Positions 4,644 to 64,000 of a DNA stretch of 64,000 bases are shown here, piece by piece; positions within the stretch are counted from its first letter, which is position 1, and each line of letters begins with the position of its first letter. This stretch comes from Leclercia adecarboxylata (lineage in GTDB: Bacteria > Pseudomonadota > Gammaproteobacteria > Enterobacterales > Enterobacteriaceae), in assembly GCF_023639785.1 (NCBI RefSeq), contig NZ_CP098325.1, positions 2,170,001 through 2,234,000 of the forward strand, written 5' to 3'. A model generated the notes under the pieces. That model was not told where the DNA came from, did no database searches, and saw nothing but the letters and a program-made list of their open reading frames with translations. The position numbers and the translations under genes are program-made.

Positions 4644-4672
4644 TTGACGTATATTTCGACTAAATCTGATAT
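4644..4672 (+). promoter_or_regulatory. predicted late promoter pR'
   Basis: TTGACG (4644-4649) and TGATAT (4667-4672) are spaced by 17 bases directly after Q. This is where phage 82 and lambda carry pR' with the Q-binding site between the -35 and -10 boxes. The -10 is weak, as expected for a Q-dependent promoter. The Q site itself cannot be defined by eye. Confidence 0.55.
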
Positions 4673-4712
4673 CGTCGCCATAGCTTTGGTTGTCGACCGA
4701 ATCACACAAAAG

Positions 4713-4742
4713 AGCCCGAGGTTAACGCCTTGGGCTTTTTGT
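4713..4742 (+). terminator. late terminator tR'
   Basis: A 9-bp stem (AGCCCGAGG with CCTTGGGCT, one G-U) is followed by TTTTTGTTTG. It lies about 40 bases past the predicted pR' start, so it should block late transcription unless Q is present. Confidence 0.8.
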
Positions 4743-7249: not shown

Positions 7250-7444
7250 ATGGCTGACATTCACCAGATCACGATAACCCTTGATATGAAGGAGCACGTT
7301 GCACGCTCTCAAGAAGTGCTTGAGGAACTGCAGCGAAGGGTGAGTGAGCTTAGTCCGCGTGTCTCAGAAGAGGACGCGCTGCGGATCCTTCTTCTCGACA
7401 TGACATTTGATTACTTGAAGGCTAAGAAATCATTGGCGGATTAA
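7250..7444 (+). CDS. small helical prophage protein, unknown
   Basis: 64 residues, mostly charged helix (HVARSQEVLEELQRRVSELS), with a short hydrophobic patch LRILLLDMTFDYL. The ribosome site AGAGG is close to the ATG. A small dyad, TACCC-N6-GGGTA, lies at 7224-7239, just upstream, and could be an operator. It is convergent with the leftward gene that ends two bases after its stop. The family is not recognised. Confidence 0.5.
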   Translation: MADIHQITITLDMKEHVARSQEVLEELQRRVSELSPRVSEEDALRILLLDMTFDYLKAKKSLAD

Positions 7445-7446
7445 AA

Positions 7447-7782
7447 CTACTGTCTTTGAATGTTTTCCCATTGGCGTCGATGCTCCTCCTTCTCATCCAC
7501 ACAGGAAGGGCACAGTAATCCGCCGTAGTACATGTCATTTTGAATGGCGCTCTCAAGATCATCACCTTCAAGAACGTGCTGGCAGTCATTGTGATACCCG
7601 CCAGGGTCGGTTACTCCATCGCAAGGTTTGGTGAGAAACGGCACTAGTACCGCTTTTTGTCGTGGAGTTAAGCTTTCATAACCATTGTTTACAGCCCTCT
7701 GAGCTATTCCAGCCACCATAGCATCTTGGCCATGGAAGCGATCATGTTCGAGCATGGTATTGAGAAGAGATTCCGTAGACAT
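7447..7782 (-). CDS. reverse-strand phage protein with Cys/His zinc-binding-like segment
   Basis: 111 residues starting MSTESLLNTMLEHDRFHGQD. The C-terminal half carries C-x-(n)-H-x3-C-x-H and later LLCPSCVDEKEEH, which suggests a metal site. The ATG at 7782 has AAAGG eight bases upstream; a longer in-frame start overlaps the terminase start region and has no ribosome site. It reads against the late operon just before the terminase genes, so it is probably expressed from its own promoter during lysogeny. No function is assigned. Confidence 0.55.
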   Translation of the reverse strand: MSTESLLNTMLEHDRFHGQDAMVAGIAQRAVNNGYESLTPRQKAVLVPFLTKPCDGVTDPGGYHNDCQHVLEGDDLESAIQNDMYYGGLLCPSCVDEKEEHRRQWENIQRQ

Positions 7783-7809
7783 AAATAAACCTTTCATTGT
7801 GGAATAAAA

Positions 7810-8382
7810 ATGGCACTCACCGACAAACAAGATATGTTCTGTCGCGAGTACCTCATCGATTTAAACGCCACGCAAGCGGCTATTCGGGCGGGGTACAGCG
7901 TCAAAACTGCCAACCGCATCGCCGCCAAGTTATTGTCAAAAGTTGACATCCAAAACAGAATCGCCGAACTCAAAACGAAGCGCAATGAAGTTGTGGGTAT
8001 TGATGCCGATTATGTGCTCCGGCGCTTGGTTGAGATCGACCAGATGGATGTATTGGACATCCTGAATGACGACGGCAGCCTAAGGCCGATCACCTCATGG
8101 CCTAAAGCCTGGCGAATTTCGCTAACCGGTTTGGACATCAGCACGACCATTCAAAACTTCGACGAAGAGACCGCCGAGACCATCCTTAAAAAGATTAAGT
8201 GGCCTGATAAGGTTAAAAACCTCGAATTGCTCGGCAAGCATGTGCGCGTGCAGGCATTCAAAGAGCAGGTGGAGCAGAAGGTCACCGCAACCCACAGCAT
8301 CATGCCGGTCCCGTCCTGCGATAACGTAGACGACTGGGAAGCAGCAGCGCAGAAGCAACAGAACGAGGTTCTTGGTGGATGA
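7810..8382 (+). CDS. terS: terminase small subunit (Terminase_2 family)
   Basis: 190 residues. The N-terminal MALTDKQDMFCREYLIDLNATQAAIRAGYS, split here into its LTDKQ and ATQAAIRAGYS motifs, is the DNA-binding helix-turn-helix of the terminase_2 small subunits. It recognises the packaging site and recruits the large subunit. The C-terminus is polar and probably forms the contact with TerL. The stop overlaps the TerL start (ATGA). Confidence 0.9.
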   Translation: MALTDKQDMFCREYLIDLNATQAAIRAGYSVKTANRIAAKLLSKVDIQNRIAELKTKRNEVVGIDADYVLRRLVEIDQMDVLDILNDDGSLRPITSWPKAWRISLTGLDISTTIQNFDEETAETILKKIKWPDKVKNLELLGKHVRVQAFKEQVEQKVTATHSIMPVPSCDNVDDWEAAAQKQQNEVLGG

Positions 8383-32700: not shown

Positions 32701-33018
32701 GTAACTCCCTAAGTGTTGTTATCAATCCCGCGTTCAGGGCGCAGGTTATTAACGTATCGGCAGCATAAGCCATTACTTTAGGTAGATAGCATTAGCGCTT
32801 CGTTTAAAATCATCTAAATTTAATGAAGTTGAATCCCCCTGTGCGGCGGGGCAATCCAGTTAACTGCTGAATGCAGATATGCTTGCGGCTCGTGTGACTG
32901 ATAACGAGTCACCGGGAGACACCCGGCACCTGTATCAGGGTAAGCTATATGTTTGTGCTGATTTCATTTGCCTGCTTAATCGGCAGGCATTTTTTACAAC
33001 TTTGAGAAGGAATCTCTG
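32701..33018. ncRNA. structured, probably non-coding region at the end of the prophage late operon
   Basis: No gene longer than 18 codons is present. The + strand can fold into consecutive hairpins: CCCC/GGGG near 32840, TGACT-N6-AGTCA at 32896-32911, CCGGG-AGACA-CCCGG at 32912-32926 and a T-tailed TGCCTGC/GGCAGGCA hairpin that ends near 32997. This looks like an RNA of about 150-200 nt with its own terminator, directly before a 35-residue hydrophobic ORF. It could be an sRNA or a leader. Strand and start are not proven, and I cannot name an RNA family. Confidence 0.4.
32971..32997 (+). terminator. rho-independent terminator
   Basis: TGCCTGC/GGCAGGCA stem with a TTAATC loop and six Ts. It would end a rightward transcript from the structured region before it reaches the 35-residue ORF. 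Confidence 0.8.
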
Positions 33019-39115: not shown

Positions 39116-39233
39116 AGCAAGGTTGTTTAGTCTTCATTTATCTTCACCATGCTAGCTTGTTCAGGATCCGCAGCCCGGTATGGATTGCCGGGTCCGTAGA
39201 TATCAAAATACAAATCTATCCATGCAAGCATTT

Positions 39234-39259
39234 ACCGCCAGTCTCTGGCGGTTTTTTTT
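39234..39259 (+). terminator. rho-independent terminator
   Basis: ACCGCCAG/CTGGCGGT stem with a three-base loop and eight Ts, ending the preceding membrane-protein transcript. Confidence 0.9.
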
Positions 39260-39341
39260 GCCCTTTCGCTGGATCATGAATTTTTTTCAACACCGATGAA
39301 TTTTTCTCGTTTGCTCCCGAGCCCGCGCTGTGACATCTTTT

Positions 39342-52696: not shown

Positions 52697-52871
52697 AGGG
52701 ATGTCTGGGATGGGTTACGTAAATGTGGTGTAACGATCTTAAAACCATCCCTGATGAAAATACAATCATTTTGTGATCAAGATCTCACTATGGCGCCGCA
52801 GTATTCGCTGGTGAAATCGGTTATTTTCCATGAATATAGGATGCAACATAACGTTAACAACAGGTAAAGCG

Positions 52872-53660
52872 ATGCAGGATATCGAGTTTTTTCTGGTCGA
52901 TGCGTTCAGCGATGACGCATTTGGCGGTAACCCGGCGGCGGTGTGCCCGCTGCCGGAATGGTTGCCCGACGACACGCTGCTGAAGATGACGCAAGAGCAT
53001 AACCAGTCGGAGACCGCCTTTTTCGTGCGCCACAAAGGCGGCATTGAACTGCGCTGGTTTACCACCTACGGCGAGGTTAATCTCTGCGGCCATGCGACCC
53101 TGGCCACCGCCTGGGTGTTGTTCAACGAGATGGACTATCCCGATGCCCGGATCCATTTTGATACGGCATCCGGCAGGCTTACCGTTACCCGCGACGGCGA
53201 CTGGTTAACGCTCGATTTTCCGGCCTGTCCGACGCAACCAGAGACCCCACCACCAGAGATGCTCCGCGCGCTGGGGTTAAGCCATTACCTTGAAGCCCGC
53301 AAGGGGCGCGCCTGGGTGCTGGTGCTGGAAAACCGCCAGCAGGTTGAGGCGGTAGTGCCGGATATCCACGCCATGACGCCGGGCGAGCACAAAGTGTCGA
53401 TCACCGCCCGGGGCGAAGGCGAATACGATTTTGTGAGCCGCTTTTTCTCGCCAGGCGTGGCGCTGTGGGAAGACCCGGTCACTGGCTCGGCGCACACGAT
53501 GCTGATCCCGTACTGGAGTGAAAAACTCAACAAAACGGCGCTCTTTGCCCGGCAGGTCTCTGCCCGGGGCGGCGACGTCCGTTGTGAACTGAAGGGCGAC
53601 CGGGTGCTAATGAGCGGCAAGGCATCGCTGTATATGAAAGGTCATCTGTTTTTGCGCTAA
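52872..53660 (+). CDS. PhzF family isomerase (copy 1)
   Basis: 262 residues from MQDIEFFLVDAFSDDAFGGNPA; the upstream in-frame start is in the A/T-rich leader. Family marks: GGNPAAVCPL, NQSETAFF with the catalytic Glu, CGHATLAT and ARGGDVRCEL. PhzF-type proteins are diaminopimelate-epimerase-like isomerases with often unknown substrates. It is followed 15 bases later by a paralogue. Confidence 0.85.
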   Translation: MQDIEFFLVDAFSDDAFGGNPAAVCPLPEWLPDDTLLKMTQEHNQSETAFFVRHKGGIELRWFTTYGEVNLCGHATLATAWVLFNEMDYPDARIHFDTASGRLTVTRDGDWLTLDFPACPTQPETPPPEMLRALGLSHYLEARKGRAWVLVLENRQQVEAVVPDIHAMTPGEHKVSITARGEGEYDFVSRFFSPGVALWEDPVTGSAHTMLIPYWSEKLNKTALFARQVSARGGDVRCELKGDRVLMSGKASLYMKGHLFLR

Positions 53661-53675
53661 ATAAGGGTTAACCCA

Positions 53676-54467
53676 ATGAAAGAAATAGAATTCTATCTGG
53701 TCGATGCGTTTAGTGACCGCGCGTTTGGTGGAAATCCCGCAGCCGTTTGCCCGCTGGAGGCCTGGCTGCCGGATGACGTGCTGTTGAAAATGGCACAGCA
53801 GCATAACCAGTCGGAAACCGCGTTTTTCGTGCGCAACGACACCGGCTTTGAGCTGCGCTGGTTTACCACGCAGTATGAAATCAACCTTTGCGGTCACGCC
53901 ACGCTTGCCAGCGCGCACGTGATTTTTGAGTATCTCGACTATCCGCAGACCGAGATTGTCTTCTCCACCCGCTTCGTGGGCGACCTCAGGGTCAAGCGCA
54001 GCGGCGACTGGCTGACGCTCGACTTCCCGGCATGGGGCTGCGATCCGGTCGCCAACCCGCCTGAACTGCTGTTCAAAACGCTGGGCATCCGCGAGGCGAA
54101 GGAGGTGCGGGTAGGGCGCGATTACCTGGTGGTGCTGGAAAACCAGCAGCAGGTAGAGGCCTTAACCCCGGATATCGACGGCATGATGCCGCTGGACAAG
54201 ATGGTCTGCGTGACCGCGCCGGGGGACGAGTATGATTTTGTCAGCCGCTTTTTCTGCCCGGGGGAAGGTGTGGCGGAAGATCCGGTCACCGGCTCTGCTC
54301 ACAGCATGCTGATCCCCTACTGGAGCGAGAAGCTGGGTAAAACCACGATGCTGGCCCGCCAGGTTTCCGCCCGCGGCGGGGATCTGCGCTGCGAGCTGAA
54401 GGGCGACCGGGTGTTGATCGGCGGGCAGGCGGCGCTTTATCTCAAAGGCACCGTGTTCCTGCGTTAG
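53676..54467 (+). CDS. PhzF family isomerase (copy 2)
   Basis: 263 residues starting MKEIEFYLVDAFSDRAFGGNPA. All family motifs of copy 1 are kept (NQSETAFF, CGHATLA, ARGGDLRCEL), and most of the rest is alike, so the pair arose by tandem duplication. Differences cluster in the middle (residues 90-150), where substrate specificity may lie. Ends two bases before the convergent DUF924 gene. Confidence 0.85.
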   Translation: MKEIEFYLVDAFSDRAFGGNPAAVCPLEAWLPDDVLLKMAQQHNQSETAFFVRNDTGFELRWFTTQYEINLCGHATLASAHVIFEYLDYPQTEIVFSTRFVGDLRVKRSGDWLTLDFPAWGCDPVANPPELLFKTLGIREAKEVRVGRDYLVVLENQQQVEALTPDIDGMMPLDKMVCVTAPGDEYDFVSRFFCPGEGVAEDPVTGSAHSMLIPYWSEKLGKTTMLARQVSARGGDLRCELKGDRVLIGGQAALYLKGTVFLR

Positions 54468-55006: not shown

Positions 55007-55054
55007 AAGGTGTCCGGGGTTGAGTTTTTGGTGGTTACACCGTAGCACAACTCC

Positions 55055-55257
55055 GCCCGGCAGCGCTGCGCTTGCACGGGCCTACGAACACCCCTCCCGA
55101 AAAGTAGGCCGGGTAAGGCGCAGCCGCCACCCGGCAAACAGGCCGCACCTTACCCCTCTGCATCGCCCGGCGGCGCTGCGCTTGCACGGGTCTGCGAACA
55201 CTACCCCGAAAAGTAGGCCGGGTAAGGCGTAGCCGCCACCCGGCAAACAGGCCGCAC
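55055..55257. repeat. tandem BIME (REP) array, two 93-94 bp units
   Basis: Units at 55055-55148 and 55165-55257 differ at about eight positions and by one base in length. Each holds facing REP palindromes (GCCCGGCRGCGCTGCGC and TAGGCCGGGTAAGGCG). Located between a start and a stop of leftward genes, which could stabilise mRNA or bind gyrase/IHF. Confidence 0.9.
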
Positions 55258-55260
55258 AAA

Positions 55261-55938
55261 TCACCCCAAAGACGCCCCGCCGCACAGCACCAGTTCCTGC
55301 CCGGTGACGGGGGCGGCATCATCGCTCAGCAGATAACTTACCATCGCTGCCACCTCGTCCGGGGTGATTAATCTCCCCATCGGCGGCACTTTTGGCGGCG
55401 ACGTCTGGCGTCCCGGCGCGCTTAGCATTGGGGTCTGGGTCGCGCCCGGGGCTACAACGTTGGCGGTGATCCCGCGCGGAGCCAGCTCTGCTGCCCAGCT
55501 GCGCATCATCCCCACCAGCGCCGCTTTGGTCGCCACGTACTGCGAACGCCCGGCGGCACCCCGGGAGGTGCGGCTGCCGATGGCGACCAGCCGTCCACCC
55601 GCGCTCATTCGTGGTGCAAAGTGGTTAAACAAAACCTCGGCGGCGTGAATATGCAGCCCCCAAAGACGGGCGCTGACCGCATGTTCAAGCTCCCCGAGCG
55701 GGGCGGCGGCCATCATTCCTGCGGCGTGAACAATCGCCTGCGGCACCGGAAGAGGCTCCAGCGCGGCCGCAAGCGTGACAGTGTCACTTAAGTCCAGGCT
55801 CAGGCTGGTGAAACCGGGATGGGCATTATCCACTCTACGGCGGCTTAAACCCGTGACCTGCCACCCCTCGTCGAGCAGGCGCTTCACGATGGCTTCGCCG
55901 ATACCCGAACTGGCACCCGTGACGATCGCAGTACGCAT
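55261..55938 (-). CDS. short-chain dehydrogenase/reductase
   Basis: 225 residues. VTGASSGIGEAI (6-17) binds NAD(P); HAAGMM replaces the usual NAG; the catalytic SQYVATKAAL provides Tyr and Lys, and a Ser lies upstream in AIGSRTSRG. Classical SDR with no membrane part. Last gene of the leftward sugar-acid cluster; probably oxidises or reduces the cluster's substrate or its aldehyde product (inference). One base separates it from the YhcH-family gene. Confidence 0.85.
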   Translation of the reverse strand: MRTAIVTGASSGIGEAIVKRLLDEGWQVTGLSRRRVDNAHPGFTSLSLDLSDTVTLAAALEPLPVPQAIVHAAGMMAAAPLGELEHAVSARLWGLHIHAAEVLFNHFAPRMSAGGRLVAIGSRTSRGAAGRSQYVATKAALVGMMRSWAAELAPRGITANVVAPGATQTPMLSAPGRQTSPPKVPPMGRLITPDEVAAMVSYLLSDDAAPVTGQELVLCGGASLG

Positions 55939-55939
55939 A

Positions 55940-56410
55940 TCACCCCTCCAGCAGTGCGCGCGGCACTTTGAATACCGCCTTGCGCACGGTCATCGGAGCA
56001 TCGACCGCACACAGCGCCTGATGCGGCTCGCCGGGGAGAAACACCGCGAAATCCCCGCGCTTAAGCCGGATGCTCACCGGATGCACCGCCCCGGGGGCGA
56101 TGTACAGATCCGGCTTGCGCTCTTCGTCGCCCTCCTGCGCCAGCGACTGCATCCCGGCGTTGATGATTTCCACCCCCGACAACACCACCTGAATATCCGC
56201 CCACTGATGATGATATTCCGTATGGCGCCGGGCCTGGGGCTGAGTCTGCGCCGGGCCAATATGGCAGAACCACGGGCAGCCTTCCGGCTGCCAGCGTCCG
56301 TCATCCCGGGCGGTCAGCGCCGCCAGAGTACAGTCCGTGCGATCGAGGATCTCACGCAGCACCGAGGGTAGCCCTGCCAGCGGCAGGGCGTTGAGGTGAC
56401 CGATAATCAC
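55940..56410 (-). CDS. YhcH/YjgK/YiaL family protein
   Basis: 156 residues from a GTG whose codon overlaps the upstream stop (GTGA). Motifs: HTEYHHQWADIQVVLSG with metal-ligand His and Glu, then FAVFLPGEPHQAL. This cupin-like family includes YhcH, linked to sialic acid catabolism, and is often proposed as a sugar-acid isomerase or anomer epimerase. Coupled to the Asp-box protein gene. Confidence 0.85.
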   Translation of the reverse strand: MIIGHLNALPLAGLPSVLREILDRTDCTLAALTARDDGRWQPEGCPWFCHIGPAQTQPQARRHTEYHHQWADIQVVLSGVEIINAGMQSLAQEGDEERKPDLYIAPGAVHPVSIRLKRGDFAVFLPGEPHQALCAVDAPMTVRKAVFKVPRALLEG

Positions 56411-57576
56411 TGTTGCGGCTCCTTCACCCATTCCGGGGAGACACGCACGTATTTGATCGCCTGACGGAAGTACGTATAGGCGATATGCAAGGTGCCATCC
56501 GCGCTCTGCTTGATGCTCGGGTAAGAGAACTCCCGGTTGAGCTTCTCCAGCGAGTTGTTGGTCATGCAGTAGCCGTCGCCTTCGTCGAGATTGCGCTGCC
56601 AGGCCCAGCTTTTCCCGCCGTCGGCGGAAATGGCCACGGTCATTGGCGCGCGCGGTGCGCCCCAGAACGCCGCGCGGCCGTTGGTCACTTCCGGCTCCTT
56701 ACGTCCGTCGCCGTCGTCAATCTCGTCGTACAGCGAGGCGCGACGCTCCAGCGCTCCCGCCGCACTCATGTGGTTGAACACCAGCGCCAGTTCGCCGCTT
56801 GCCAGCGTGGTGACCTGAATCGACGAGTTGTTATTCGGCAGCTCAGTCGGCTCCGGCACAGACCAGCTTTCGCCGCTATCCAGCGACTGGCTGATGTAGA
56901 TATTGTCCGCCCAGCGGCTGCGGTACAGCGCCACCAGGGTGCCATTGTTTAGCGCGGTGATGTTCATATGCACGCAGCCCAGACTCTGTGGCACCTCGAC
57001 ATCGCGCCAGCTCTGGCCCCGATCTTCCGAGATTTTCACCGCGCTGATGTCGTCATTGCCCACCCATTTTTCCCCTGGCCGGGTACGGCAGTAGAAGACC
57101 GGCAGCAGCCAGTTGCCGTTATCCAGCACCACAATCGGCTGGCGGATGAAGGTGCCGGGCTTATCCAGCAGGGTGGCGATCTCGCCCCAGGTCTGGCCCA
57201 GATCCTGCGACTTCCGGTAGCGCACGATAGCGGTATCCTGGTTGCCGGAGAGCTGGGCGGTCCACAGCAGCCACAGCACGTTGTCCGGGGCCAGGAACAG
57301 CACCGGGTTCTGCTCCGAGCGGCTGGCGTCGTCGGAGAGCTTCACCGCGTCGCTCCACTGGTCGCTGCCGGGGGCCAGGCGCGAACCCCACACCGAAATA
57401 TCCGCTATCCCTTCCTGGGTGCCGCCGAACCAGACGCACATCAGGGTGCCATCCGGCAGCGGCAGCAGGTTTGCTGCGTGATTTTGCGGGCAGGAAGAGG
57501 GCAGCATCGCCGTCTCCACGCGGCCATCCTCTGGCTGCGGGCGAACAATCCCGTCACGGGTTACGGTTACAGACAT
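56407..57576 (-). CDS. Asp-box (BNR) sialidase-superfamily protein, cytoplasmic
   Basis: 389 residues from MSVTVTRDGI. Four Asp-boxes of S-x-D-x-G-x-x-W are visible: SQDLGQTW, SEDRGQSW, SLDSGESW and SADGGKSW, giving a six-bladed propeller of the COG4692 predicted neuraminidase group. There is no signal peptide, so it acts in the cytosol on an imported glycoside or acts as a lyase or isomerase, not as a secreted sialidase. It starts one base after the symporter stop. Confidence 0.85.
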   Translation of the reverse strand: MSVTVTRDGIVRPQPEDGRVETAMLPSSCPQNHAANLLPLPDGTLMCVWFGGTQEGIADISVWGSRLAPGSDQWSDAVKLSDDASRSEQNPVLFLAPDNVLWLLWTAQLSGNQDTAIVRYRKSQDLGQTWGEIATLLDKPGTFIRQPIVVLDNGNWLLPVFYCRTRPGEKWVGNDDISAVKISEDRGQSWRDVEVPQSLGCVHMNITALNNGTLVALYRSRWADNIYISQSLDSGESWSVPEPTELPNNNSSIQVTTLASGELALVFNHMSAAGALERRASLYDEIDDGDGRKEPEVTNGRAAFWGAPRAPMTVAISADGGKSWAWQRNLDEGDGYCMTNNSLEKLNREFSYPSIKQSADGTLHIAYTYFRQAIKYVRVSPEWVKEPQQ

Positions 57577-57577
57577 A

Positions 57578-58990
57578 TCAGACTCCATTATGTTGAACAG
57601 GGGCAGGCGCTTTGCGATCCGCTTTATTGGGGATCAGACGGTCAAGGACCATAATCACCGCCGGGGTGATCAGCGCGATATACATATTGTTGATGCCAAA
57701 CGGGTCACCCAGCAGATACCACAGCGATGTCACCACGCAGGCACCAATCAGGCCGGCATTCGCCCCGCGGGTGCTCCTGAAGAACGGCGCATAGAAGGCA
57801 ATGACCGCCACCACCGTAATCGACAGACGAATGGCGCGGGTGAAGAATGACAGCTTCAGCACCTCCGGCACCAGCAGGACGAAAATCAGCGGCAGGAAGC
57901 CAATCAGCAGCGACATCCAGCGGGTGGCCTTAAACTCCTGCTCCGGGGTGGGGTTGCGGTACGGCACGTAGAAATCTTTCACCACCAGCGAGGCGATAGC
58001 CAGCGCCACGGTACTTACGCTGACGAAAATCGAGGCTACAAGTGACGTTGTCACGAGTCCGGCCAGCCACGGGTTCATGTCCTGCAGGAAGATCGGCATG
58101 GCGTACAGGCTGTCGATCTCAGGGTGGAGATACTTGGCTGCAACGCCAATCACCGCAATCGCCAGGGCAATCGGCAGGCAGAAGAAGAAGGCGACCCAGG
58201 TAGAGCGTTTGGCTGATTTCACGTCTTTGGTGGACGAGATGGCCTGAATCACAAACTGGGTGCAGAAGATTGAGCCGATGGTGCCAATCAGCCAGGCAAA
58301 GATGGTGCTGGCCCCGATGTTGCCGTCCCAGGTCCAGTAGTAAGAAGGCATCTGCTCAATCATGGGCGTGAAGCCGCCGGTTTTAGAGAGCGCAAAGCCC
58401 ATGATCACCAGAATACCGAAATACTTCAGGGCGCTGTGCAGCAGCGTCACCCAGGCCACGCCCTTCATGCCGCCAAAGGCGAAGTAGAAGGTACTGACGA
58501 TAGCCGTAATAAAGGCGGCAACGGGGAGGTTGACCTTGAGGACGGTGGAGATCGCCGCCGCGCCTGAGACGTAGTTGCCGACGTTCACCAGCAGCAGGGC
58601 GTAGATCATGATAACTGAGATGATGTTTTTGGTGCTGGTGCCGTACTTCTCGGCAATTGCCCCGGAGATGGTGATTTTGCCGGTATTATAGATGCGTTTC
58701 ACCAGCAGCAGGCCAAACAGCGGGAAGCCGATGGCCGCGCCAATGACCGACCAGGACGCAGCAAAGCCATCCTCGAACGCCGCCTGGGCAGTACCGATGG
58801 TGGATTTGGCGCCGATGTATTCAGACATCAGCAGGATCCCGACGATAAACGCCGGCATTGCCCGGGAGCCCTCCATAAAATCACCGGTGTTTTTACTGCG
58901 CAACCGGAAGGTCAGCCAGGTGGTAAACAGGATGTAGGCAATCACAATGCCTACGATGATCAGGGTATCTTCAGCGGTAAAATTGTTCAT
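57578..58990 (-). CDS. sodium:solute symporter (SSS family)
   Basis: 470 residues with about 13 membrane helices; MNNFTAEDTLIIVGIVIAYI opening, GSRAMPAFIVGILLMSEYIGAKSTIG in helix 1-2, and a conserved sodium-site region near YVSGAAAIS. SSS members include the sialate transporter SiaT, and its neighbours here favour an acidic sugar as substrate. Directly upstream of the Asp-box gene in one transcript. Confidence 0.88.
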   Translation of the reverse strand: MNNFTAEDTLIIVGIVIAYILFTTWLTFRLRSKNTGDFMEGSRAMPAFIVGILLMSEYIGAKSTIGTAQAAFEDGFAASWSVIGAAIGFPLFGLLLVKRIYNTGKITISGAIAEKYGTSTKNIISVIMIYALLLVNVGNYVSGAAAISTVLKVNLPVAAFITAIVSTFYFAFGGMKGVAWVTLLHSALKYFGILVIMGFALSKTGGFTPMIEQMPSYYWTWDGNIGASTIFAWLIGTIGSIFCTQFVIQAISSTKDVKSAKRSTWVAFFFCLPIALAIAVIGVAAKYLHPEIDSLYAMPIFLQDMNPWLAGLVTTSLVASIFVSVSTVALAIASLVVKDFYVPYRNPTPEQEFKATRWMSLLIGFLPLIFVLLVPEVLKLSFFTRAIRLSITVVAVIAFYAPFFRSTRGANAGLIGACVVTSLWYLLGDPFGINNMYIALITPAVIMVLDRLIPNKADRKAPAPVQHNGV

Positions 58991-59067
58991 CTTTGCCTCT
59001 CTTCAGGGCGTAGGAAACCTGGGCACCCGCGGTGCCCGGTATTCTTATGGACGAAATCAAACGCCGG

Positions 59068-59952
59068 TTACTGCAGTGACTTTGTCACTATCTGGCGGAT
59101 CTGTTCAGTCTGTTGCGCATCGAAAGCCACCGCGTAGCGGCTTTCACCCACCTCTTCGCCCATCACCTGCAGCGCTTTTTTCACCGCCGCCGGAGAGAAG
59201 GCCACGTTATACAGATTCGTGCGCAGTTCAGTCACCCCCTCCTGCGCCCGACGCGAGCCGTCGATATCGCCCGCATGGAAACGGGTCCAGATGGCGTTGA
59301 TTGCCTCCGGCGCGACGTTCGCCAGCCCGGAAATACAGGCCGAACAGCCCTCGACAAAGCCCCGGTGGATCAGCGAGTCCGGGCCGTTCAATACGTCAAA
59401 ATCATCGATACCCTCGGCGGCTTTCAGGAAACCGCTCAGGCTCTCAAAGCTGCCCGCGCTGTCCTTAATGCCGATGATATTCGGGTGCGAGGCCAGCACC
59501 CTTGCGGTGTGCGGCTCAATGGTGTTGCCGGTACGCGCCGGGATGTTGTAGAGAAATACCGGCACGCTCAGGGCATCGGCGATGGCGGTGTAATGGGTGA
59601 TCAATCCCGCCTGGGTCAGCGGCACGAACCACGGGGTGATCACCGACACGGCATCCACGCCCAGGCTTTCAATCTGCTTACCGAGACGGATGGTGGCCCG
59701 GGTGGAGATCTCCCCGATATGCGCCACCACCGGTGCGCGCCCGGCGACCTCTTCCACGCAGGTGCGGGTGACGGCCACCTTTTCCTCTTCGGTCAGGACG
59801 AAAAATTCACCGTTGGTGCCGCCGCAGAAGATCCCATTACCCGCTGCCAGCTGCCGCTGGATCTGACGCTTCAGCCCCGGCAAGTGCAGGGCGCCGTCAT
59901 CGGTAAAGGGGGTGACGATCGCCGTCAGCACGCCTTCAATCTTGTTACGCAT
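59068..59952 (-). CDS. DapA/NanA-family aldolase or dehydratase
   Basis: 294 residues, a TIM barrel. Schiff-base Lys163 in GIKDSAG, Tyr135 in LYNIPARTG, and CGGTNGEFF at 43-51 for carboxylate binding. This last motif differs from DapA (GTTGE) and NanA (GSTGE) and is closer to the keto-deoxy-sugar-acid members. It probably cleaves a 2-keto-3-deoxy acid to pyruvate plus an aldehyde. The gap to the symporter gene is 77 bases. Confidence 0.85.
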   Translation of the reverse strand: MRNKIEGVLTAIVTPFTDDGALHLPGLKRQIQRQLAAGNGIFCGGTNGEFFVLTEEEKVAVTRTCVEEVAGRAPVVAHIGEISTRATIRLGKQIESLGVDAVSVITPWFVPLTQAGLITHYTAIADALSVPVFLYNIPARTGNTIEPHTARVLASHPNIIGIKDSAGSFESLSGFLKAAEGIDDFDVLNGPDSLIHRGFVEGCSACISGLANVAPEAINAIWTRFHAGDIDGSRRAQEGVTELRTNLYNVAFSPAAVKKALQVMGEEVGESRYAVAFDAQQTEQIRQIVTKSLQ

Positions 59953-59969
59953 TGTTCACTCCTTCGAGT

Positions 59970-61115
59970 TTAATTTTCGGGGAACAGGGTCTGGTAAATG
60001 CCCTGTACCTCGGCATGGCTGACCTGACGCGGGGCATTGTTCATCAGGCGTTTTACGTTCAGCGCGGCATCGCTCAGCGAAGCGATATCATCCCGCGGTA
60101 CGCCCAGCGTCTCGAGGTTGTCCGGTAAATTAAGGCGGCGCACCAGCGCGGCGAACCACGCCACCAGCGCGTGGGATTTCTCCTCCGCCGACAGGGATGT
60201 ATCGGCACCGGGCACCAGATCCCACACCTGGGCAAATTTTTCTACCGCGTCCGGGCGCACCACGCGCATACAGGGCGCCAGCAGAATGGCGTTCGCCACG
60301 CCGTGCGGCAGGTGATATTTGCCGCCAAGGGGATAGGAAAGGGCATGCACCAGATGGGTCCCGGCATGGGCAATCGCCACGCCGCCATAGTAAGAGGCCC
60401 ACAGCATTTCGAGCTTCGCCGTCAGGTTGTGCGGCTCGGCGCAGGCGGTTTCGATGTTATTCACCAGCTTGCGCAGGCCAATCAGCGCCGCGTTATCGCT
60501 CACCGGGTTGGCGACGGTGGCGGTAAAGCACTCAATCAGGTGGCAGAGGGCGTCAATCCCGGTAGAAGAGGCAATATGCGGCGGCATGCTGGTGGTCAGT
60601 TCCGGCAGCAGGGCCACATAATCCGGGAGCAGAACCGGGGAGATAATGCCGATTTTGGTGCTCTGCTCAGGAATGGCGAGGATGGCGTTCGGCGTGGCTT
60701 CAGAGCCGGTACCGGCGCTGGCCGGGATCAGCAGCGACGCGAGGCGTTCGGTCGGTTTTTCGCCCGCCAGCAGGGCGTCCAGCCCGGGGGACGCCGGATG
60801 GCACAGCACGGAGAGCAGCTTCGCCACATCCAGTACGCTGCCGCCGCCCACCCCCACCACCAGATCAAAGGCGGTATCGTCGATCCCCGCCAGCAGGGCG
60901 TGAACGTCGTGATGCGTTGGCTCCGGCGGCACGCTCTCAATCACGCTGAGGCTCCGGTTGTCGGCTTCCAGCAGGGTGCGGATGGCACGGGCGGCGTCCA
61001 GACGGGCAATATTGCCGTCGGTGACCAGTAAAAGACGCGTCTTGCCTGCCAGCAGTGGCGCAAGGGCCGGAATCGCACCCGCACCGCTGATAATCGTACT
61101 GTTAATGGTTAACAC
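59970..61115 (-). CDS. iron-containing alcohol dehydrogenase
   Basis: 381 residues from a GTG (VLTINSTIISGAGAIPALAP) with AGGAGA six bases upstream. VGVGGGSVLDVAKLLS binds NAD(P); Fe(II) ligands in DALCHLIECF and GVAIAHAGTHLVHALSYPLGG, split around the conserved His. Longer in-frame starts run into the promoter dyads. First gene of the leftward unit; could reduce the aldehyde released by the aldolase, or oxidise a hydroxy acid. Confidence 0.86.
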   Translation of the reverse strand: MLTINSTIISGAGAIPALAPLLAGKTRLLLVTDGNIARLDAARAIRTLLEADNRSLSVIESVPPEPTHHDVHALLAGIDDTAFDLVVGVGGGSVLDVAKLLSVLCHPASPGLDALLAGEKPTERLASLLIPASAGTGSEATPNAILAIPEQSTKIGIISPVLLPDYVALLPELTTSMPPHIASSTGIDALCHLIECFTATVANPVSDNAALIGLRKLVNNIETACAEPHNLTAKLEMLWASYYGGVAIAHAGTHLVHALSYPLGGKYHLPHGVANAILLAPCMRVVRPDAVEKFAQVWDLVPGADTSLSAEEKSHALVAWFAALVRRLNLPDNLETLGVPRDDIASLSDAALNVKRLMNNAPRQVSHAEVQGIYQTLFPEN

Positions 61116-61166
61116 ATTGCTCTCCTGTTGCTGTGTCCGTGATTGATTTCGCTCAACGCAGACAAT

Positions 61167-61249
61167 CACACTCATCGTGTGTCTAAATTTATAATTTATT
61201 CGCAAACCGAATAACTTGATCTTGCTCACATATAATCAATCATGATTGA
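61167..61249. promoter_or_regulatory. divergent control region with three dyads (probable DeoR-family operators)
   Basis: Between the divergent dehydrogenase and kinase genes: CACAC-N5-GTGTG (61167-61181), TTATTCG-N5-CGAATAA (61196-61214) and the perfect 14-bp palindrome TCAATCATGATTGA (61236-61249). TATAATCA also repeats directly at 61231 and 61251. A DeoR-family regulator is encoded at the right end of the cluster and is the likely binder. Confidence 0.55.
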
Positions 61250-61284
61250 ATATAATCATTAACAGGAAATGCGAACCTTTGGGG

Positions 61285-62505
61285 ATGAGAGTGAACAACC
61301 TGAACAGAGACGTCGTAGTCATTGCCGACGACTTTACCGGTGCCAACGATGCCGGTGTGAGCCTGGCGCTAAGCGGCAAGAAAGTCAGCGTGGCCTTTAA
61401 GACGCCTTTCACCGACACCACCGATGCGCTGGTTATTAATAGCGACAGCCGGGCGATGAAGGCATCAGAGGCGGCTGAAAAACTGGCCCAGTATGCCACC
61501 GACGTTCACGCCGCACGCTGGCTGATTAAGAAAATTGACTCGACGCTTCGCGGCAACCCGGGAGCCGAAGTTGAGGCGCTGCTCAGGCTCAGCGGTAAAC
61601 GTCAGGCGATTATCGCCCCGACGTTCCCGGCTGCCGGGCGCACGACAGAAAACGGCCTCTGCCTCGTAAAGGGCGTGCCGGTGACCGAAACCGAATTTGC
61701 CAGCGACCCGAAAACCCCGGTGCGCCATGCGCACATCGCGGCGGTGCTGGCGGAACAAACCGCGCTTGCCAGCGTGGTGGTCAAGCCTGAGCAGCTCGCG
61801 GCGGCCTTAGCGAGTGAGGCCCGTTTAGTGATTGTGGATGCCCGCAGTGATGAGGAGCTGGATGAGATTATCGCCGCGGCTTTTAGCTGCAGTACGCGTC
61901 CGCTGCTGGTGGGCTCGGCCGGGCTGTGTGATGCCCTGGCGCGCCGACTTGCCACCCCGCGCCAGCTGCTGGCAGTCATTGGTTCGATGAGTGAAATTGC
62001 TCAGCAGCAGATCCGGTATGTGCGCGGTGAGGACAATGTCAGCACGGTGTTAATAGATATCAATGATGTGTTTAACGGGGCGATGGCGGGATACCAGCAG
62101 CAGATTGCTGCCGCGCTGGCGAAAGGCCAGCACTGCCTGGTGCATACCTGCGCCGACACCGGGGCCCGCCATCAGATAGACAGGCTGTGCGAACAGCGCG
62201 GGTTAAGCCGCGCCGCGCTAGGGGAGACCATCAGCGCGTTTCTCGGGGAGCTTACGCGCAACGTGCTGGAAACCAGCCGCCCGGCGGCGCTGTATGTCTC
62301 CGGCGGCGACGTGGCGATGGCGGTGGCCAGCGCGCTTAACGCGCAAGGTTTTGCCATAACCGGACAGGTGGCCCAGTGCGTGCCGTTCGGTCGATTTTTG
62401 GGTTGTCGCTGGCAGGGGCCAGTCATGACCAAAGCGGGCGGTTTTGGTACTGAAACCACGCTGCTTGAGGTTCTGCATTTTATCGAGGAGAAGATGAGTG
62501 ACTAA
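61285..62505 (+). CDS. DUF1537 four-carbon acid sugar kinase
   Basis: 406 residues from MRVNNLNRDVVVIADDFTGAND; GTG 61291 with GGGG six bases upstream is an alternative. IADDFTGANDAG and KKIDSTLRGNPG are the N-terminal substrate-domain signatures; YVSGGDVAMAVA and TKAGGFG the C-terminal ATP-domain ones. Family members (OtnK, DtnK) phosphorylate threonate, erythronate or related acids at O-4. The next gene overlaps by eight bases. Confidence 0.9.
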   Translation: MRVNNLNRDVVVIADDFTGANDAGVSLALSGKKVSVAFKTPFTDTTDALVINSDSRAMKASEAAEKLAQYATDVHAARWLIKKIDSTLRGNPGAEVEALLRLSGKRQAIIAPTFPAAGRTTENGLCLVKGVPVTETEFASDPKTPVRHAHIAAVLAEQTALASVVVKPEQLAAALASEARLVIVDARSDEELDEIIAAAFSCSTRPLLVGSAGLCDALARRLATPRQLLAVIGSMSEIAQQQIRYVRGEDNVSTVLIDINDVFNGAMAGYQQQIAAALAKGQHCLVHTCADTGARHQIDRLCEQRGLSRAALGETISAFLGELTRNVLETSRPAALYVSGGDVAMAVASALNAQGFAITGQVAQCVPFGRFLGCRWQGPVMTKAGGFGTETTLLEVLHFIEEKMSD

Positions 62506-63484
62506 TATCATTGCTGTAACGATGGGTGACCCGGCGGGCATCGGCCCGGAAATTATTATTAAATCTCTGACCGAGGGCGAGCTCTCCGGCGCGCCGGTTG
62601 TGGTGGTGGGCTGTGCCAGAACCCTGCAACGGGTGCTGGAGAAGGGCATTACCGCGCCGGCGGAGTTACGCGTGATTACCCGCGTCAGCGATGCGCAGTT
62701 CGGCCCGGCAATCATCAACGTGCTGGATGAACCGCTGGCCGATCCTGAGGCGTTACAGCCTGGCGTGGTGCAGGCCCAGGCGGGCGATCTGGCCTACCGC
62801 TGCGTGCGTCGCGCGACAGAGCTGGCGATGGCGGGCGAGGTGAAAGCCATTGCTACCGCGCCGCTCAACAAAGAGGCGCTGCACCTGGCGGGCCATCACT
62901 ACCCGGGCCATACCGAGTTGCTGGCGCACCTGACCGACAGCAAAGATTACGCGATGGTGCTCTATACCGATCGGCTGAAGGTGATTCACATCACCACCCA
63001 TATCGCGTTGCGCAAATTCCTTGATACCCTTAACCAGGATCGGGTAAAAACCGTGATTGGCATTGCAGATACCTTCCTGAGGCGCGTGGGCTATGACAAT
63101 CCGCGCATCGCCGTGGCCGGGGTTAACCCGCACGCTGGCGAGAACGGCCTGTTTGGTGACGAAGAGATCAGGATAGTCGGCCCGGCCGTTGACGCAATGA
63201 AGGCGAAGGGGCTGAACGTCTTTGGGCCATGCCCTCCGGATACGGTGTTTATGCAGTGTCACGAAGGCATGTACGACATGGTGGTGGCGATGTATCACGA
63301 TCAGGGGCATATTCCGTTAAAACTACTCGGTTTTTACGACGGGGTGAACATCACCGCCGGGCTGCCGTTTATCCGGACTTCCGCCGACCATGGCACCGCG
63401 TTCGACATTGCGTGGACAGGTAAAGCGAAGTCTGAGAGCATGACGGTTTCTATCCAGTTAGCGATGCAAATCACACGGGAATAA
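62498..63484 (+). CDS. pdxA2: PdxA2-type 4-phospho-acid dehydrogenase
   Basis: 328 residues (GTG start). [38 protein letters not shown] and [14 protein letters not shown] hold the metal-ligand His and Asp residues of the PdxA family. Next to a DUF1537 kinase such genes encode decarboxylating 4-phosphothreonate/erythronate dehydrogenases (PdxA2), which make dihydroxyacetone phosphate, rather than vitamin B6 enzymes. Confidence 0.85.
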
Positions 63485-63485
63485 T

Positions 63486-64000
63486 ATGAAGGGATATAGC
63501 CGGTTAGAACAGATAATGGACTACCTGAAAGGGCACAATCTGGTGACGGTCGATCAGCTGGTGGCGGCAACGGATGCCTCTCCCGCGACCATTCGCCGCG
63601 ACCTGATTAAGCTCGATCAGGAGGGCGTCATCAGCCGTACCCACGGCGGCGTCACCCTGAACCGGTTCATCCCTTCTCAGCCCACCACCAGTGAAAAGCT
63701 GCACCGCAGCCTGGCGGAAAAACATGACATCGCCTGCGCGGCGGCCCGTTTTGTTAAAGCCGGTGACGCGGTGGTGCTCGATGCGGGCACCACGATGATT
63801 GAACTCGCGCGTCAGCTGACCCATCTGCCACTGCGCGTGATCACCAGCGATCTGCATATCGCCCTGTTTTTATCGGAGTTTAAGCAGATCGAGGTGACGA
63901 TCATCGGCGGGCGCATCGACGATACCAGCCAGTCCTGTATCGGCGAGCATGGCCGCCGGATGCTGCAAAATATCTGGCCGGATATCGCCTTTGTCAGCTG
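63486..64000 (+). CDS. DeoR-family transcriptional regulator (partial, cut by the window end)
   Basis: 171 residues visible. N-terminal DeoR helix-turn-helix ([21 protein letters not shown], recognition helix SPATIRRDL), then [12 protein letters not shown] and the sugar-phosphate-binding domain with [15 protein letters not shown]. The ATG lies two bases after the pdxA2 stop. Likely senses a phosphorylated intermediate and controls the divergent promoter at 61.2 kb. Confidence 0.92.

Follow-up and report, generated by a model that had tools for sequence, protein, structure and literature searches.

The last 8.7 kb of the stretch of Leclercia adecarboxylata DNA analysed here (64,000 nucleotides, hereafter the window, bases 2170001-2234000 of a 4.7-Mb genome) carry a cluster of nine genes, and we lean, on balance, towards explaining it best as a pathway under DeoR control for the use of a seven-carbon (C7) 3-deoxy-2-ulosaric acid, most likely 3-deoxy-D-lyxo-hept-2-ulosaric acid (Dha). 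That the cluster is one co-regulated catabolic unit seems to us almost certain. A sequence-only reading had already proposed that families known from sialic acid breakdown are joined here to a module for a four-carbon (C4) acid phosphate; its nine open frames exist, Pfam matches agree with the families it assigned, and the two gene sets diverge as it described, with an iron-containing alcohol dehydrogenase (Fe-ADH), an aldolase, an SSS symporter, an Asp-box protein, YhcH and an SDR read leftward, and a DUF1537 kinase, PdxA2 and a DeoR regulator read rightward. The features are:

55261..55938, minus strand: SDR-family oxidoreductase (Pfam PF13561, 118.6 bits); optional, mostly found with the SSS transporter
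55940..56431, minus strand: YhcH/NanQ-family protein, putative ring-opening anomerase (Pfam PF04074; TIGR00022, 95.9 against a cut-off of 45.5); optional
56407..57588, minus strand: Asp-box (BNR_2) protein, putative hydrolase or opener of a cyclic ulosaric acid derivative (PF13088, 223.5 bits)
57578..58990, minus strand: SSS-family symporter (PF00474)
59068..59952, minus strand: DHDPS-family class I aldolase with Lys163, Tyr135, a DapA-like Arg140, and Phe109 for DapA Tyr107 (PF00701 and alignments)
59970..61115, minus strand: Fe-ADH, putative 2,3-dihydroxy-4-oxobutanoate reductase (PF00465/PF25137)
61230..61259, no strand assigned: operator-like palindrome ATATAATCAATCATGATTGAATATAATCAT, core TCAATCATGATTGA, presumed DeoR site, conserved in divergent intergenic regions
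61285..62505, plus strand: DUF1537 D-threonate kinase, DtnK (PF07005 and PF17042; NF047819, 522.4 against a cut-off of 450)
62498..63484, plus strand: PdxA2, D-threonate 4-phosphate dehydrogenase (PF04166; NF002891, 675.3 against a cut-off of 583)
63486..64000, plus strand, continuing to 64247 beyond the window: DeoR-family regulator (PF00455/PF08220, full frame in the genome)

In the pathway that we propose, the DeoR protein would control the use of a single cyclic diacid, most likely the Dha of the plant polysaccharide rhamnogalacturonan-II (RG-II), imported free or as a small derivative by the SSS symporter (elsewhere by an SLC13 carrier, an Opp-type ABC system or a TTT system). The Asp-box protein and YhcH would release the acid or open its ring to give the linear 2-keto acid, which the DHDPS-type aldolase would cleave by a retro-aldol reaction to pyruvate and 2,3-dihydroxy-4-oxobutanoate (tartrate semialdehyde, D-threo); Fe-ADH would then reduce this aldehyde to D-threonate, DtnK would phosphorylate it, and PdxA2 would oxidise and decarboxylate the product to dihydroxyacetone phosphate and CO2. 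We infer the direction of the Fe-ADH reaction, the C7 diacid, the choice of Dha and the roles of the Asp-box protein, YhcH and the SDR from the evidence laid out below. A reductive route that starts from a C7 ulosaric acid and passes through D-threonate is in our view probable; that its natural substrate is the Dha of RG-II falls a little short of an even chance.

The genes of the cluster travel together. Named genomes were scanned with an alignment of 13 Asp-box proteins, and of at least 581 relatives the best 80 were kept as loci, a sample ranked by likeness to the window rather than a census. Within the fetched flanks, Asp-box, aldolase, Fe-ADH, kinase and PdxA genes occur together in 51 of these 80 loci, some of the other 29 being cut by contig ends. 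Among the 51 are loci from Enterobacterales, Necropsobacter, Gilliamella, Azospirillum, Bradyrhizobium, Burkholderia, Bacillus, Priestia and Lucifera, in both Pseudomonadota and Bacillota; the spread of the unit goes well beyond Enterobacteriaceae, and three of its members, SSS, YhcH and SDR, are optional. Fe-ADH is present in all 54 loci of this set that have a kinase or a PdxA. Among 295 genomes sampled from the window's own family (E-value limits of 1e-60 for the Asp-box protein, 1e-70 for the aldolase and 1e-60 for the kinase), the three proteins are found in 32, 42 and 73, respectively; the aldolase accompanies the Asp-box protein in 31 of 32 cases, the exception being a genome that is 49% complete, and the kinase accompanies the aldolase in 42 of 42. 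The Asp-box protein was found at 1e-50 in 5 of 398 Bacilli genomes, too few for statistics. The Fe-ADH-dtnK-pdxA2 piece is carried by 1044 of 5426 complete E. coli genomes, and 1040 E. coli genomes match the window stretch, the part from Asp-box to Fe-ADH being covered among the matches listed. Relatives of the Asp-box protein, often annotated as exo-alpha-sialidase, occur in 315 records of a plasmid collection. One K. pneumoniae record, CP125156 (L006), is listed as a plasmid, yet has 5.37 Mb and mar genes; its SDR, Asp-box and Fe-ADH genes are each split in two pieces, as pseudogenes or through sequence errors. The PdxA of Caballeronia is annotated as a single frame of 2307 bp, going by the annotation long enough for the kinase too.

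A shared operator-like element points in the same direction. The 30-bp palindrome is present in 37 divergent intergenic regions between Fe-ADH and kinase genes (the window's own locus, L009, included), 36 of them at 0-6 mismatches to the window copy and that of Gilliamella at 9; a degenerate form of the pattern has no match in 100 shuffles of the window. With a weight matrix built on 17 distinct Fe-ADH/kinase intergenic sites, the top match in nine Pantoea loci that hold only the SSS/Asp-box module falls upstream of the SSS gene in nine of nine (13.5-34.4 bits), compared with at most 3.8 bits for the best other site and at most 7.9 in 60 first-order simulated sequences per locus, and these loci amount to fewer than nine independent cases because several are close relatives, two being of one species. 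The degenerate form occurs exactly twice per genome in seven of seven Pantoea (once per module), once in the window genome, and not at all in the reversed control. Further aldolase-bearing genomes, 41 in number, include 33 with exactly one operator, which lies beside the kinase in 32 and upstream of Fe-ADH, with the kinase on another contig, in one. Three Bradyrhizobium loci gave no operator match, and neither did L061, whose contig begins within the SSS gene; we therefore limit the claim of a regulon to Enterobacterales. The DeoR protein would be the one that binds this candidate operator. A scan for sigma-70 promoters in the window's intergenic region gave no match; beside the operator lies an element, TTGCTCACA, which we take to resemble a CRP half-site, and positions 61219-61258 hold a pair of direct repeats of 20 bp each, side by side and 75% alike, which end in ATATAATCA. 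Two Bacilli loci encode a PrpR-type sigma-54 activator (L069, 11311-13110; L159, 1626-3410), with no DeoR of the window's type labelled in these stretches.

In loci without the full set, Fe-ADH often lies elsewhere in the genome. Twenty-nine of the 80 loci are not full, and a whole-genome search covered 19 of them (the others being L053, L061, L076, L087, L089, L091, L098, L102, L104 and L081). Queried with the window protein, Fe-ADH turned up elsewhere in 8 of the 19 genomes (7 Pantoea, 1 Bacillus), and a Bradyrhizobium query found it in 9 of the 11 that remained, the two misses being metagenome-assembled genomes. Beside these distant Fe-ADH genes lies a kinase, PdxA or aldolase gene in 8 of 8 and 8 of 9 cases, respectively, counts that are lower bounds in high-GC Bradyrhizobium because gene picking errs on such DNA. 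Whether the two halves would fail to co-occur had been set beforehand as a point on which the sequence-only reading hung, and the answer is that they do co-occur: in the 51 full loci, in the kinase that goes with every aldolase of the family, and in the operator common to both Pantoea modules. The idea of two unrelated neighbours was rejected on the co-occurrence and the operator.

Eleven genomes of the family have the aldolase and no Asp-box protein, and they are the source of 12 stretches with a second layout, in which aldolase and Fe-ADH stand with a D-2-hydroxyacid dehydrogenase (11 of 12), one or two MFS carriers (12 of 12), a PF04199 cyclase-family protein (3 of 12) and the kinase (9 of 12; the remaining three are split or cut); families were assigned here by Pfam and NCBIfam on examples and by clustering for the others. 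Lucifera has both layouts within a single locus, and in three Pantoea genomes the second layout is separate from the SSS/Asp-box module. We infer that the two layouts are two entries to one 2-keto acid, with the Asp-box protein and YhcH serving a cyclic ulosonate-type acid and the dehydrogenase turning a 2-hydroxy acid into the linear keto form.

In the lower part of the pathway, the scores of the window kinase and of PdxA2 exceed the respective curated cut-offs for D-threonate kinase and D-threonate 4-phosphate dehydrogenase (see the list above; the kinase of E. coli LF82 reaches 531.4), and because of this the C4 acid in this branch is most likely D-threonate. The kinase score was obtained on a frame that starts at TTG 61246. 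DtnK is a characterised D-threonate kinase, according to the available text of PMC10971088. The sequence-only reading had the aldehyde from the aldol cleavage oxidised to the C4 acid, and here we depart from it: no aldehyde dehydrogenase is found among the nine genes, an SDR above 200 bits (a threshold that a divergent SDR could escape) is absent from 15 of the 51 full loci, including all six with an SLC13 carrier, and Fe-ADH is the enzyme that is always kept. The oxidation of a tetrose by the SDR as a general rule was rejected on these SDR counts. Given the lack of an aldehyde dehydrogenase and the constant Fe-ADH, the simplest route would therefore be the reduction of an aldehyde that bears a carboxylate, 2,3-dihydroxy-4-oxobutanoate, from which it follows that the substrate would be a diacid, 3-deoxy-hept-2-ulosaric acid. 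Of its eight stereoisomers, which we enumerated, two (D-lyxo and D-xylo) yield D-threonate, and the D-lyxo isomer is Dha. In plants Dha is reported only from RG-II, as far as the accessible part of PMC12168206 goes. What stands of the earlier proposal is thus a single catabolic unit with an ulosonate-type upper part and a C4-acid-phosphate lower part, without the oxidation of the aldehyde.

The aldolase may suit such a diacid. Its motif GGTNGEFF, which the sequence-only reading had set apart from DapA and NanA, is present and differs from those of the genome's own proteins that we take, from their motifs and neighbours, to be DapA-like (GTTGES), NanA-like (GSTGEA) and YagE-like (GSGGEF). These three proteins were aligned with 80 cluster aldolases (a set that differs from the 80 loci), hits of at most 240 bits in Asp-box loci or at most 300 in the second layout being excluded, among them those of L087, L089, L091 and L092, the smaller piece of L017 and the second hit of L142. 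At position 140, 62 of the 80 aldolases have Arg and 6 have Lys (68 of 80 basic), the DapA-like protein has Arg, and the NanA-like and YagE-like proteins have Leu. In DapA, Arg138 binds the carboxylate of aspartate semialdehyde, and the proposed 2,3-dihydroxy-4-oxobutanoate is a dihydroxy analogue of that compound; Arg140 of the cluster aldolase thus suggests an aldehyde that may likewise carry a carboxylate. The same 68 aldolases have Phe in place of DapA Tyr107, so that their proton relay must differ from that of DapA. The aldolase scores below the equivalogs of NanA (TIGR00683, 112.6 against 382; NF003164, 141.9 against 281) and of DapA (TIGR00674, 192.5 against 206.15). Aldolases of 13 loci are 21-78% identical to that of the window, which suggests that the aldol step has been filled from different DHDPS subfamilies.

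In the upper part, the Asp-box protein has four SxDxGxxW boxes and, by eye, no evident signal peptide. A search with its single sequence found no solved relative at 0.01, and a profile of 49 members matches the GH33 sialidases (best 4fj6, 8e-12). With regard to the catalytic set of that family (Arg triad, Tyr, Glu and Asp), R149 lines up, in a single weak domain match, with the Arg of the FRIP motif in 4fj6. The 49 members share 51 invariant columns, R223, R225, R313 and Y356 among them, and 38 of the 51 are kept in a Bacteroides finegoldii relative (including H37, R223, R225, R313 and Y356, with Lys for R149 and R282). This relative is fused to a GH78 rhamnosidase, and its gene directly follows a gene of GH140, the family to which the apiosidase BT1012 presumably belongs. 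BT1012 acts on RG-II, as the available text of PMC7939467 has it. A Streptomyces relative adjoins an apiosidase-like gene and has two GH28 genes within 10 kb, and these two neighbourhoods may be read as hints of RG-II. The window's YhcH falls within family TIGR00022 and does not reach the equivalog for the N-acetylneuraminic acid (Neu5Ac) anomerase (NF040884, 90.1 against 160); YhcH of E. coli, which opens cyclic Neu5Ac for NanA (PMC8141875, in the part available), is by analogy a precedent for an opener that would act beside an aldolase.

Transport and accessory genes are exchangeable. SLC13 and TerC genes replace the SSS symporter in E. coli and the Klebsiella oxytoca group, an Opp-type ABC system does so in Rhizobium, Sinorhizobium, Agrobacterium and Shinella, and a TTT binding protein is a further replacement. 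The TerC-family gene lies between aldolase and Asp-box genes in five of the six SLC13 loci (in L008 at 7430-8188) and likewise in the E. coli LF82 cluster, which lacks SSS and SDR. YhcH exceeds 100 bits in 34 of the 80 loci, and the annotation of the stretches from E. coli LF82 and R. etli shows no SDR.

Other explanations have to be set against the ulosaric acid pathway. The SDR, which exceeds 200 bits in 63 of the 80 loci and gives some hit in 68, would find a place if the substrate were a monoacid, 3-deoxy-D-lyxo-heptulosonate, cleaved to pyruvate and D-threose, the latter being oxidised to D-threonate by the SDR or Fe-ADH with a lactone opened by the Asp-box propeller, much as the sequence-only scheme would have it; SDRs are able to oxidise aldoses to lactones. 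We think this unlikely, in view of the full loci that do without such an SDR, the lack of an aldehyde dehydrogenase in the cluster and the aldolase Arg, which suggests a carboxylate on the aldehyde. About as unlikely, in our opinion, is the import of a D-threonate conjugate that the Asp-box protein would split, D-threonate passing to DtnK and PdxA2 while aldolase and Fe-ADH process the other part and Fe-ADH discards an aldehyde as alcohol. The best NCBIfam score of Fe-ADH, with lactaldehyde reductase (211.3 bits, below the cut-off of 523.15), would agree with such a role, but the second layout has no labelled Asp-box protein or YhcH and yet keeps aldolase and Fe-ADH mostly with kinase and PdxA.

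Two independent pathways lying side by side, one for an ulosonate on the left and one for plain D-threonate on the right, could be argued from the 31 of 295 genomes that have the kinase without the aldolase (73 versus 42), so that the kinase also serves without this aldolase; the aldolase, however, never occurs without the kinase, the same operator stands on separated modules, and the co-occurrence holds across two phyla with gene order rearranged, all of which makes such independence very improbable. No more weight can be given to a divergent Nan system that would break down sialic acid, Kdn or Kdo, an idea which the family resemblance of SSS, aldolase, YhcH and Asp-box protein brings to mind. 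Neither the NanA nor the NanQ equivalogs are reached, nanE, nanK and nagA/B are, as the sequence-only reading had stated, not among the nine genes, and a NanA-like gene, like a DapA-like one, lies elsewhere in the window genome; moreover, aldol cleavage of Neu5Ac, Kdn or Kdo gives a hexose or D-arabinose, which leaves DtnK and PdxA2 without explanation. Sialate catabolism was rejected on the equivalog scores.

Several observations nevertheless weigh against the pathway for Dha as we have drawn it. The links to RG-II come from two distant relatives of the Asp-box protein (44% and 25% identity), and the annotation of the enterobacterial stretches examined names no RG-II enzyme. Twelve of the 80 aldolases have Met, Val, Phe or Leu instead of a basic residue at position 140, mostly in alphaproteobacteria, and the Arg of the others may be a functionless inheritance from a DapA-like ancestor. 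In four other loci, two of them from Rhizobiaceae and the others from Azospirillum and Bacillus, the kinase stays below the DtnK cut-off (115-323 bits against 450). The scheme does not account for the SDR, and the same lower part is also fed by the second layout, by way of its D-2-hydroxyacid dehydrogenase and MFS carrier. In one Bacilli genome (G408; L160, 6712-10298), alpha and beta subunits of the class I fumarase/TtdAB type lie between an Arg-type aldolase and the Asp-box gene; no Fe-ADH, kinase or PdxA is labelled in that stretch, and these fumarase/tartrate-dehydratase-type subunits are perhaps another fate of the C4 product. Upstream in this locus stands another Asp-box-like frame, a short one. 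As to the statistics, the Fisher value for co-occurrence in the family (about 1e-31) ignores kinship and is inflated by very small genomes in the sample; the degenerate pattern behind the count of two operators per Pantoea genome was partly fitted to Pantoea sites; and 8 of the 41 further aldolase-bearing genomes show no exact match to the operator.

Some details of the locus may be added. Fe-ADH most likely starts at GTG 61115 instead of the listed 61229, because the Met of the E. coli LF82 homologue aligns there and AGGAG lies just upstream; D226, H230, H295 and H309 (numbering of the longer frame) are invariant in 12 Fe-ADH sequences. For the kinase, ATG 61285 or GTG 61291 is likelier than TTG 61246, since the latter would fall inside the operator. 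The Asp-box protein of the window shares 93-95% identity with its counterparts in two Silvania species. In order and length the flanks are like those in K. pneumoniae, with PhzF to one side of the cluster and genes for lactate dehydrogenase, GNAT, LysR and sad to its other side. The homologue of the cluster in E. coli LF82 is located between nagE and glnS, and the unit is thus found at different chromosomal sites. On the PhzF side, two neighbouring similar frames (52830-54467) resemble PhzF-family duplicates, K. pneumoniae having PhzF annotated there, and just downstream of the SDR gene (55054-55257) a GC-rich, REP-like unit of 109 bp with inverted repeats stands in two tandem copies. Rfam small-RNA matches in the window are STnc100 (32799-33000), STnc560 (39131-39296) and isrJ (4659-4738).

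If the proposal is true, it has consequences beyond this genome. An enzyme that releases Dha from RG-II is known (PMC6811678, in its accessible part), and a route for the use of Dha would close a gap; among the open-licence papers listed, we found no description of a pathway for Dha catabolism or for these genes together. We would tentatively see here the missing Dha pathway, although this fuller statement is slightly more apt to fail than to hold: a DapA-like aldolase, Fe-ADH and DtnK/PdxA2, found in roughly one in five complete E. coli genomes as well as in Bacillota and the Alpha-, Beta- and Gammaproteobacteria, and entered through either of two interchangeable modules, Asp-box/YhcH where the acid is cyclic and D-2-hydroxyacid dehydrogenase where it is reduced. 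Bacteria associated with plants or the gut carry relatives of the cluster; a function would be given to proteins that often bear the annotation exo-alpha-sialidase, and the Fe-ADH-dtnK-pdxA2 region of E. coli would be a possible cross-feeding trait on plant fibre.

Compared with known systems, the cluster shares with the D-threonate pathway DtnK-PdxA2, reportedly described by Zhang et al. in 2016, a kinase and a dehydrogenase that reach its equivalogs, and differs in that D-threonate would arise within the cell, made by its aldolase and reductase out of a larger acid. With sialate catabolism it has in common an ulosonate-type transporter, a DHDPS-family aldolase and a YhcH-type protein, but its aldolase is not NanA, nanE/K and nagA/B are lacking, and the product would go to the threonate route. 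The glucarate/galactarate route GarL-GarR-GarK also takes a diacid 2-keto-3-deoxy intermediate through aldol cleavage to pyruvate and a semialdehyde, reduction and a kinase; the likeness lies in the order of reactions only, whereas the substrate of the cluster would be one carbon longer, the enzyme families are presumably others, and the end is a decarboxylation by PdxA2. DapA belongs to the same family as the cluster aldolase, whose R140 aligns with the Arg of the genome's DapA-like protein at the Arg138 position, the differences being the score below the DapA equivalog and the Phe for Tyr107. Genomic region GR6 of E. coli BEN2908 is this same E. coli region, with the same gene families; the available part of PMC12928451 mentions S. 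meliloti homologues, links DUF1537/PdxA2 with pyridoxal phosphate, and gives neither a pathway nor a substrate. Lastly, the GH143 Dha hydrolase of B. thetaiotaomicron is, according to the accessible text of PMC6811678, a sialidase-related enzyme with a five-fold fold that frees Dha from RG-II polysaccharide; compared by description only, it would resemble the Asp-box protein as a sialidase relative for Dha, and differs from it in that fold and in acting on the polysaccharide.

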